Position numbers and translations under genes: made by a program. From Candidatus Faecimonas gallistercoris (GTDB taxonomy: Bacteria; Bacillota_I; Bacilli_A; RF39; UBA660): a stretch of DNA of 46,938 bases. The notes under the pieces were generated by a model. The model saw only the letters and a program-made list of their open reading frames with translations. It was not told where the DNA came from and ran no database searches. The DNA is taken from NCBI GenBank assembly GCA_018712565.1, contig DVGU01000008.1, positions 1 to 46,938 of the forward strand, in the 5' to 3' direction. Each line of letters opens with the position of its first letter. Positions within the stretch are counted from its first letter, which is position 1. Shown here piece after piece: positions 21,743 through 46,938 of this stretch.

Positions 21743-21771
21743 TTGACAAGCGAACAAACGTATTATATAGT
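21743..21771 (+). promoter_or_regulatory. Sigma-A-like promoter with LexA/DinR-like box in spacer
   Basis: TTGACA-17-TATAGT; spacer contains CGAACAAACGTATT (21751-21764). Confidence 0.75.
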
Positions 21772-21824: not shown

Positions 21825-22493
21825 ATGAAAGGAAAGATAATTGTTATCGAAGGGACAGATTGTTCAGGAAAAGAAACACAATCTCTTTTGTTAGAAAAAA
21901 AATTAAAAGAAGCTGGAAAAAAATGTATTCGCTTTGGATTTCCTATGTATGATACACCAACTGGTAGAATTGTAGGAGGTCCTTATCTGGGAAATCCAGA
22001 AATTTTACAAGGCTTTTTTCCAGAAGGGGCTGATCATGTTGATCCTCATATTGCGTGTTTATATTATGCTGCAGATAGAAAGTATAATATGGAGAAAATT
22101 CTTCCTTATTTAGAAGATGGTTACTATGTTATTTTAGATCGTTATACTACTTCTAATCTTGCTCATCAGGGTAGTAAGATTCATGATAAGGATGAGAGGT
22201 TTTTAATGTATCAATGGATTGATAAATTAGAATATTGGTTGTTGCAACTTCCAAAGCCTGATCAGACTATTTTTTTACATATGCCATATCAATATTCTTT
22301 AAAATTAAGAGAAACTAGAAAAGTGGTGGATGAACATGAACGTTCTGAGGAGCATTTAAAAAATGCTGAGGAGGCTTATATTGAACTTTCTGAGATGTAT
22401 AATTGGAAAAGAATAGAATGTGTTAAAGATGATAAAATAAGGTCTATTGAAGATATTAATCAAGAGATTATTGATAATTTAATTGAGATTTAA
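21825..22493 (+). CDS. Thymidylate kinase-like deoxynucleotide kinase
   Basis: MKGKIIVIEGTDCSGKETQSLLLEKKLKEAGKKCIRFGFPMYDTPTGRIVGGPYLGNP...ILDRYTTSN. Confidence 0.88.
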   Translation: MKGKIIVIEGTDCSGKETQSLLLEKKLKEAGKKCIRFGFPMYDTPTGRIVGGPYLGNPEILQGFFPEGADHVDPHIACLYYAADRKYNMEKILPYLEDGYYVILDRYTTSNLAHQGSKIHDKDERFLMYQWIDKLEYWLLQLPKPDQTIFLHMPYQYSLKLRETRKVVDEHERSEEHLKNAEEAYIELSEMYNWKRIECVKDDKIRSIEDINQEIIDNLIEI

Positions 22494-43103: not shown

Positions 43104-43132
43104 TTGATATACAAACAAATGTATTATATAAT
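43104..43132 (+). promoter_or_regulatory. Sigma-A-like promoter with LexA/DinR-like box in spacer
   Basis: TTGATA-17-TATAAT; spacer has CAAACAAATGTATT (43112-43125), same phase as at 21743 and 46490. Confidence 0.65.
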
Positions 43133-43180: not shown

Positions 43181-43618
43181 ATGAATTTTTATGTAGGATC
43201 AGGAATGAAAAATTGTGAATTAGTAACTTGTTATGCAGAAAAATTAAAAGAAAAGGGGTGGCATCAAACTTACGATTGGGTAGAGAATGTATGTGATGAT
43301 GAACCGATAGATGATATGATAAATTATGCAAGACGTGAAAAACAAGCTGTTATAGACTCTGATGTTGTAATTATTATATTACCTGCTGGAAGAGGAGCGC
43401 ATATTGAACTAGGAATGGCTCTAGCATTAGATAAAAAACTTTTTCTATGTGCACAGTCAGAAGATGAGTTTAGTATAGATAATACAGTAGCTTTCTATGA
43501 ATTACCTAGTGTAGTAAAATTAATTGGAACAGTTGATGAAAATATTGATAAAATAATGAAGGTAGTAGTAGCAGATAAAAGTAAAGTGAAAGAGATAACA
43601 ATGAAAAACAATAGCTAA
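43181..43618 (+). CDS. Nucleoside 2-deoxyribosyltransferase-like protein
   Basis: MNFYVGSGMKNCELVTCYAEKLKEKGW...VIDSDVVIIILPAGRGAHIELGMALALDKKLFL; NDT-like Rossmann pattern. Confidence 0.75.
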   Translation: MNFYVGSGMKNCELVTCYAEKLKEKGWHQTYDWVENVCDDEPIDDMINYARREKQAVIDSDVVIIILPAGRGAHIELGMALALDKKLFLCAQSEDEFSIDNTVAFYELPSVVKLIGTVDENIDKIMKVVVADKSKVKEITMKNNS

Positions 43619-43764: not shown

Positions 43765-45795
43765 ATGGCAATTGGTAGAGAGGAGTTAAAAAAAGAAGAT
43801 TTAATATTATCTAAGGTATTAAAATTATTAGGTAATACTTTGGAGGAGTTAGGTGGAGATGTTTATCAAGAGGAAGAGGATTTTACTGAGTTTAAGAAGA
43901 TGATGTGGGAAGATTCTAATAGTTTTGATCAAGCAGAAATTGGGCAAGTTATGGCAGCGACACAGCAAGAGGCAGAAAAGGTTTTAATGAAGAGAAAGTA
44001 TTTTATAAGACTTAATCAAATTAAAAATAAACCTTATTTTGCATCGATTGTTTTTCAAGATGAAGAGGGTAAAAATTATAATATTTATATTTCTTTGACA
44101 TATTTAAAAGATAAAAATCTTAATAATATTTTATATGATTGGCGAAGTCCTATTTGTAGTTTGTTTTATGATTATGAAGTTGGGCCTTGTTCTTATATTG
44201 CTCCTGGAGGAGAATATTTTGGAGAGTTAAAAAGAAAAAGGCAATATAAGATAGAGAATAGGAAGTTAGTTGGTGTTTTTGATAATTCTTTAAATATTGA
44301 TGATGAAGTATTGCAAGAAGTTTTAGCACATGAGGATAGTGATAAGATGAAGAATGTAGTAAATACAATTCAACAAGAACAAAATCAAGTGATTCGTAAT
44401 TTGGAAGATCATAATTTAATTGTCCAGGGGATTGCAGGAAGTGGTAAGACTACGGTTGCTTTACATAGAATTGCATTTTTACTTTATCGCTTAGAAAAAT
44501 TAACTAGTAAAAATATTTTAATATTTTCTCCTAATCCTGTATTTAGCGAGTATATTTCGGATGTATTACCTTCCTTAGGAGAAGAGAATACTTTACAGAC
44601 AACGTTTCATGATTATATGGCATATCAGATTACTGAGTATAAAGAGATAGAGTCATTTACTGATTTTGTAGCGAGATATTATACTTATCAAGTTCCTGAT
44701 ATAGAATTAATTAAATATAAACAAAGTGATGAGATTATTAGTGATATAGATCAGTATTTAGATGAATATATTTCTAAGGCAAAATTTATAGAATCTTTTT
44801 ATGAGGGAGATGTTCATTATGTTTCTTTAGATGATATTAATTTTTTACTTCATCATAAGTATGATAGATTTCCTTTGTTTGAAAGAGTAGAGGAGATTGC
44901 GAAGAAGTTATCTTATGATTTCTATCAAGGTAGTGGTAAGAAGACGGGAGTTTTTCGTAAGTTATTAAGAGAGCATGCTAATTTTAAGAAGAATATAAAG
45001 GAAATTTATAAGGGGTTTTATTCTAGTGTTTATTGTAGGGTTACGTTGACGGATAAAGAGATTAATCAGTTTGTAAGAGGAAGAAAATTGTTTTATGAAG
45101 ATGCTTTATTGTTTTGCTATATAAAGGGAAAGTTAGAAGGCTTTTTGTATGAAGAAAATATTAAGCAAGTTGTTATTGATGAGGCACAAGATTATAATAA
45201 GTTACAATATATGATTATTTCTCGTATTTTTGGGAGAGCAGATTTTACTATTTTAGGAGATGTTAATCAGAATATTAATCCTTATTATCATTATGATTCA
45301 TTAGAGGAGTTGAAAAGCGTATTTACTAAGGATAGTAAGTATATTGAACTTTTAAAGACTTATCGTTGTTCTCCTGAGATTATTGAATATACTAATAAGA
45401 TATTACATCTAAATCATGTTAATGCTATACGTCGTGATAATCAGAAACCTGTTGTTTTTAGGAGACATTTAGAAAATTTAAAAGAAAGTTTATTACATGA
45501 TATAAAAGTACTTAAAGAAGAACATTCTAGTGTTGCAATTATTACAAAAGATGATAATGAGGCAGAAAAGATTTATTCTTTAATTAAAGATAGTGTGAAA
45601 GTTACTTATATTACTTTAGATACTAAAGAATTTTCTAGAGAGTTAGTTTTAGTACCAGCTTATTTAGCGAAGGGATTAGAATTTGATAGTGTTATTTTGT
45701 ATAATGATAGAGAAAATTCTTATAAGGGGAATGAACGTAATTTATTATATGTTGCTTGTACTAGAGCACAACATGAGCTTTATATTTATAATTAA
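43765..45795 (+). CDS. HelD-like UvrD/Rep-superfamily ATPase (RNA polymerase-recycling type)
   Basis: LIVQGIAGSGKTTVALHRIAFLLYRL, VIDEAQDYNKLQYMII, YVACTRAQHELYIYN; DWRSPICSLFYDYEVGP N-terminal pattern. Confidence 0.88.
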   Translation: MAIGREELKKEDLILSKVLKLLGNTLEELGGDVYQEEEDFTEFKKMMWEDSNSFDQAEIGQVMAATQQEAEKVLMKRKYFIRLNQIKNKPYFASIVFQDEEGKNYNIYISLTYLKDKNLNNILYDWRSPICSLFYDYEVGPCSYIAPGGEYFGELKRKRQYKIENRKLVGVFDNSLNIDDEVLQEVLAHEDSDKMKNVVNTIQQEQNQVIRNLEDHNLIVQGIAGSGKTTVALHRIAFLLYRLEKLTSKNILIFSPNPVFSEYISDVLPSLGEENTLQTTFHDYMAYQITEYKEIESFTDFVARYYTYQVPDIELIKYKQSDEIISDIDQYLDEYISKAKFIESFYEGDVHYVSLDDINFLLHHKYDRFPLFERVEEIAKKLSYDFYQGSGKKTGVFRKLLREHANFKKNIKEIYKGFYSSVYCRVTLTDKEINQFVRGRKLFYEDALLFCYIKGKLEGFLYEENIKQVVIDEAQDYNKLQYMIISRIFGRADFTILGDVNQNINPYYHYDSLEELKSVFTKDSKYIELLKTYRCSPEIIEYTNKILHLNHVNAIRRDNQKPVVFRRHLENLKESLLHDIKVLKEEHSSVAIITKDDNEAEKIYSLIKDSVKVTYITLDTKEFSRELVLVPAYLAKGLEFDSVILYNDRENSYKGNERNLLYVACTRAQHELYIYN

Positions 45796-46397: not shown

Positions 46398-46434
46398 AAT
46401 CATAAAGAATTAGTTTTCTTTATGATTCTTTTTT
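46398..46434 (+). terminator. Intrinsic terminator
   Basis: AATCATAAAGAA-...-TTCTTTATGATT then CTTTTTT. Confidence 0.85.
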
Positions 46435-46489
46435 GTATATTAGGAATTTGCTTCTCAAAATGCAAATTTGAAAACTTGATAAAAAATAG

Positions 46490-46518
46490 TTGACATGCGA
46501 ACAAATGTATTATATAGT
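46490..46518 (+). promoter_or_regulatory. Sigma-A-like promoter with LexA/DinR-like box in spacer
   Basis: TTGACA-17-TATAGT; spacer contains CGAACAAATGTATT (46498-46511). Confidence 0.75.
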
Positions 46519-46539
46519 GTTCTCATCAGGAGGAATATT

Positions 46540-46938
46540 ATGTATAGAGCTTATCGGTTTCGTTTGTATCCTACAACTAATCAAGTAGAGTTAATTCACA
46601 AAACATTTGGTTGTACTAGAGTAGTATATAATCATTATTTAGAAAAGCAAAAATCACTTTATGAAGAGAAAAAAGATTCTTTATCTTGTTTTGATATGAT
46701 AAAAGATTTAAAAAACTTACAAGTAGAACATCCCTTTTTAAAGGAAGTAGATTCTTGTAGCCTAAGATGTAGTTTATTTAATTTAGAGGATGCTTTTAAA
46801 AGATGGTATAAAGGACAAGGAGAATACCCTAAATTTAAGGGAAAATACAACTCTAAAAGAAGTTATAGAACAAACTGTATAAGTAATACTTATAAAGATA
46901 AAACATATCAAAGTATAGAAGTAGATTTAAAAAGACAC
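46540..46938 (+). mobile_element. tnpB: IS200/IS605-family TnpB (OrfB), N-terminal part, truncated by window end
   Basis: MYRAYRFRLYPTTNQVELIHKTFGCTRVVYNHYLEKQKSLYEEKK...LFNLEDAFKRWYKGQGEYPKFKGKYNSKRSYRTN: classic TnpB N-terminus. aggagg SD; open to window edge so absent from the ORF track. Confidence 0.93.

Follow-up and report, generated by a model that had tools for sequence, protein, structure and literature searches.

The 29-nt sequence at positions 21743 to 21771 (+ strand) is best read as a promoter carrying a LexA (SOS) operator in its -35/-10 spacer and driving a dTMP-kinase-like gene, a reading to which we give a probability of about 0.8 on the basis of sequence comparison. The same type of promoter recurs upstream of repair genes in related genomes and also occurs in a family of TnpB transposons, within the left end of the element.

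Results

A LexA-type box overlies the promoter of a dTMP-kinase-like gene

The promoter, TTGACAAGCGAACAAACGTATTATATAGT, consists of a -35 element TTGACA (21743-21748), a 17-bp spacer (21749-21765) and a -10 element TATAGT (21766-21771), and the letters and coordinates reported for it in an earlier note proved exact. The ATG of the downstream gene lies 53 bp past the 29-mer. This gene (21825..22493, + strand) encodes a 222-aa protein that matches PF02223 with an E value of 3.1e-21, and its best NCBIfam matches are dTMP kinases, although these fall below their cut-offs. The box, CGAACAAACGTATT (21751..21764, + strand), sits inside the spacer and therefore over the promoter. Compared with CGAAC-N4-GTTYG its left half is exact and its first 11 nt fit CGAACRNRYGT, while the right half, GTATT, is degenerate; the divergence remarked on previously is real and amounts to two positions. 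Also as described, the promoter is 27/29 identical to that of the tnpB gene at 46490, with two differences.

To score such boxes we used a weight matrix trained solely on those upstream of lexA in related genomes (73 boxes from 39 regions, most lexA upstream regions containing at least one), the consensus of which is CRAACAWWTGTTYG. When the window, meaning the whole 46,938-nt stretch of DNA analysed here, was scanned with this matrix, the three sites that had been singled out ranked first (46490, score 13.74), second (43104, 13.45) and third (21743, 11.55). The 21743 score is lower than that of most lexA and recA boxes, and random sequence would contain about 19 equally good sites per Mb.

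The promoter-plus-box pattern marks repair, replication and thymidylate genes

The bare 14-mer is not unusual in the window, where six occurrences with up to three mismatches were found against 4.6 expected, and a further count at a loose mismatch level gave 30 against 36 expected, with no enrichment. Since the bare motif gives no signal and the promoter-plus-box pattern does, the promoter context is needed for significance. Specifically, TTGAYNNNCRAACAAAYGTATTATATA with up to three mismatches occurs at 11 places in the 1.29-Mb source genome, for which our genome-wide statistics rest on such pattern searches, and at none when the pattern is reversed. Across the family sample, the promoter plus box with up to two mismatches was found at 34 places in 19 of the 195 genomes, again with none for the reversed control. 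In the collected loci, with their 17-bp spacer, the box follows the -35 element after 2 nt in 38 distinct promoters and directly in 30, counts that are biased by the search pattern.

In the source genome the 11 places precede the dTMP-kinase-like gene, a deoxyribosyltransferase-like gene and recX, the other eight being apparently TnpB copies or remnants. In relatives, the promoter is carried by recG (twice), ruvA, a Y-family polymerase gene (dinB/umuC, twice), rarA/MgsA, addB-like genes, dnaE, thyX, pcrA/UvrD and recX, together with one dTMP kinase gene, TnpB and some genes without an obvious link. Taken together, the genes behind the promoter show a strong bias towards repair, replication and the supply of thymidylate. 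Genes of the phage-antirepressor type (ORF6N, Bro-N, KilA-N) also lie downstream of the same promoter at nine loci in relatives. Among one genome per GTDB r220 species the exact pattern retrieved 55 stretches, all from genomes labelled Bacilli, Bacillales, Tenericutes, Erysipelotrichaceae or Clostridium, and by eye roughly two thirds of them lead into TnpB.

The clade appears to have a Gram-positive-type SOS regulon

The matrix trained on lexA finds boxes at recA and at some recX genes, and the clade therefore appears to possess an SOS regulon of the Gram-positive type. Each of the 28 genomes scanned has a strong box before recA, of canonical type in the source genome (AAAACAATTGTTCG), and a box scoring at least 11.3 was found in 6 of 28 recX upstream regions; recX of the source genome has the same type of promoter with a box. 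The canonical box CRAACNNNYGTNYG has only one match in the source genome. The expectation that SOS genes would share the site held for recA and recX here and, in relatives, for recG, ruvA, dinB/umuC, rarA, addB-like genes and pcrA; it failed for uvrB, whose upstream regions contained no LexA box in any of the 27 family genomes searched (0/27), unlike the situation in many bacteria.

A search of the source assembly with TIGR00498 found no lexA. Both genomes of the same genus that were examined, G176 and G040, do contain the gene, and the G176 protein passes the lexA equivalog model at 221.6 bits against a cut-off of 110.95. Proteins with an S24 domain were detected in 192 of the 195 family genomes, a count that includes weak matches and not necessarily LexA, and several genomes have more than one such match. 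Of these, the strongest that were inspected are genuine LexA proteins: they measure about 205 aa, match LexA repressors of solved structure over the full length, and have both Ala-Gly at the site of cleavage and the serine motif GESM. The lexA-adjacent region of G040 matches one contig of the source assembly, C42, but the match stops about 550 bp before lexA is reached, and the contig itself ends within about 180 bp of that point. Its end (positions 1-150 of the extracted locus) gives a sub-threshold match to a group II intron (27 bits, gathering cut-off 32, E 0.001), so the assembly was probably interrupted by a repeat at the expected location of lexA, and the gene is probably missing through a gap beside this putative intron. 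Moreover the recA box of the source genome argues that LexA is still present, and we infer that lexA lies in the missing part of this genome. Taken on sequence grounds, the LexA-like operator proposed in the earlier note is supported at most points where it was checked: boxes at SOS genes, the recA box and lexA within the genus.

The right half-site appears to be a natural variant

The promoter divergent from lexA carries CGAACAATTGTATG in the same-genus genomes, whereas in other genera the right half there reads GTTCG or GTTTG; the same-genus boxes associated with LexA show the related right half GTATG, which also occurs at the recX promoters of three other genera. The presence of GTAT right halves at lexA-divergent and recX promoters indicates that they are natural variants. 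At a ruvA promoter the spacer accommodates a canonical box, so the -10 element does not impose the weak half. An asymmetric site with GTATT in place of GTTYG is predicted to give weaker, leakier repression, and lower affinity is expected of the 21743 box.

The same half-site could be taken as the mark of another specificity, the spacer being read by a different repressor, be it an S24 protein (phage-type or HdiR-like) or some unrelated regulator. The absence of lexA from the source assembly, the family genomes with several S24 matches, the fact that GTATT is not the commonest form in the boxes of lexA itself and the phage-antirepressor-type genes that carry the promoter would all fit such a regulator. 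However, the positions taken by canonical boxes at the lexA-divergent and recX promoters of other genera can instead hold GTATG or GTATT forms, the left half is an exact LexA half-site, and the canonical and GTATT forms have common gene sets and the same promoter phase, which makes a different repressor improbable, at about one chance in ten.

Predicted SOS control of the dTMP kinase gene is recurrent but sporadic

Of the 195 family genomes, 152 contain an orthologue or homologue of the dTMP-kinase-like gene, and the same HD-domain gene is a frequent neighbour. Boxes scoring at least 11.5 were found in 8 of 88 upstream regions of orthologues, against 0.65 in dinucleotide shuffles (maximum two in 60 rounds); the corresponding Poisson value, about 6e-6, takes no account of relatedness between genomes, although the positive regions come from different genera. 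Of the eight boxes, three are almost perfect and fall within the spacer of the promoter. Most orthologues, including that of the same-genus genome G040, lack a box, and the predicted SOS membership of this gene is accordingly recurrent but sporadic.

An origin of its promoter from a decayed TnpB transposon end was also considered; it was suggestive in one comparison and unconvincing against all copies, where the flanks gave values of 0.24 downstream and of 0.017 upstream, the latter from an alignment that overruns the end of the preceding gene. That the sequence is simply a strong constitutive promoter, spread by the transposon or arisen by chance and holding a fortuitous LexA half-site, is slightly less probable again than another repressor: it would accommodate the lack of over-representation of the bare motif at loose mismatch levels, the membership of most source-genome copies in one transposon family and the faint likeness of the flanks to the transposon end, but that likeness did not hold up against all copies, dTMP-kinase orthologues of other genera repeatedly have near-perfect boxes in front of them, and the conserved spacer and the bias to repair genes would be left unexplained.

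Further sites in the window

The best-scoring promoter of the window (46490..46518, + strand; box CGAACAAATGTATT, 46498-46511) is part of a TnpB transposon, located within its left end and upstream of a tnpB gene of the IS605 OrfB type (46540..46938, + strand; PF12323, E 1.3e-19) that is cut by the contig end; a full-length relative matches guided_TnpB at 311.9 bits (cut-off 100). Similarity among the transposon copies begins about 57 nt before the -35 element. The promoter is thus internal to the transposon and travels with it, and SOS control would extend to every copy that has retained it. The IS605-type family is multi-copy (46433-46938 in the window; loci L009, L012-L017 and L123-L177), with the LexA-box promoter within about 60 nt of the left end, and many copies sit at contig ends.

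The second site (43104..43132, + strand; box CAAACAAATGTATT, 43112-43125) precedes a nucleoside 2-deoxyribosyltransferase-like gene of 145 aa (43181..43618, + strand; PF05014, E 1.3e-4, below the gathering cut-off). This gene is rare (7/195 family genomes) and no box scoring above 8.2 was found at the loci of the six other copies, so the site is unsupported by conservation. An internal stop codon in three of those six copies is suggestive of decay. The helicase-like gene that follows (43765-45795), which a Pfam look had suggested might be a repair helicase, is instead HelD-like (RNA polymerase recycling; NF041464, 480.8 bits) and no obvious repair gene. The small regulon of three genes envisaged in the earlier note, joining the kinase, the deoxyribosyltransferase and TnpB, gives way to a wider one: the sites would belong to an SOS regulon that is not private to these genes, and the deoxyribosyltransferase link is confined to the source genome.

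Discussion

We propose that in the undamaged cell a LexA dimer would occupy the 21743 box and block RNA polymerase, and that after DNA damage RecA filaments would provoke LexA self-cleavage and so induce the dTMP-kinase-like gene, presumably providing more dTTP for repair synthesis. With GTATT as right half, the gene would be repressed less tightly than recA or lexA and expressed at a higher basal level. LexA binding, induction and the dTTP rationale are all extrapolated from sequence. A broader proposal, to which we give slightly less than even odds, is that in this clade of Bacilli with small genomes an IS605-type family has put TnpB under host LexA, so that it would be made mainly upon DNA damage, and that the SOS regulon recurrently recruits dTMP kinase, here via a weak asymmetric operator.

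Our literature search found no report of a LexA-controlled TnpB nor of SOS control of thymidylate supply, and a limited search found no LexA study of this uncultured group of gut Bacilli. The site is most likely an SOS/LexA operator, of a type already known, and the TnpB and dTMP-kinase links would be the interesting parts. The results outline an SOS regulon for a large uncultured group and raise two testable possibilities, that a TnpB nuclease and that thymidylate supply are under SOS control.

The Gram-positive LexA/DinR box is GAACN4GTTC (B. subtilis; C. difficile regulon, PMC4234289). The sites described here resemble it in the CGAAC left half, the 4-nt centre, the position over the promoter and the association with recA, recX and other repair genes, and differ in the GTATT right half of the 21743 box and in a target set that includes dTMP kinase and not uvrB. 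ISDra2 of Deinococcus radiodurans is likewise an IS200/IS605 element tied to DNA damage, being activated by irradiation, with transposition that depends on TnpA and for which TnpB is dispensable (PMC2806898); the accessible part of that report describes no LexA box before tnpB, whereas the TnpB family found here has one. A parallel in placement is offered by the ISCR elements, whose transposase promoters are LexA-controlled, with LexA binding demonstrated (PMC13393415), and which also hold the LexA box within the mobile element's own promoter. There, however, the box is the proteobacterial CTGT-N8-ACAG and the gene a transposase, while here a Gram-positive box, known from its sequence, precedes the RNA-guided nuclease gene tnpB.
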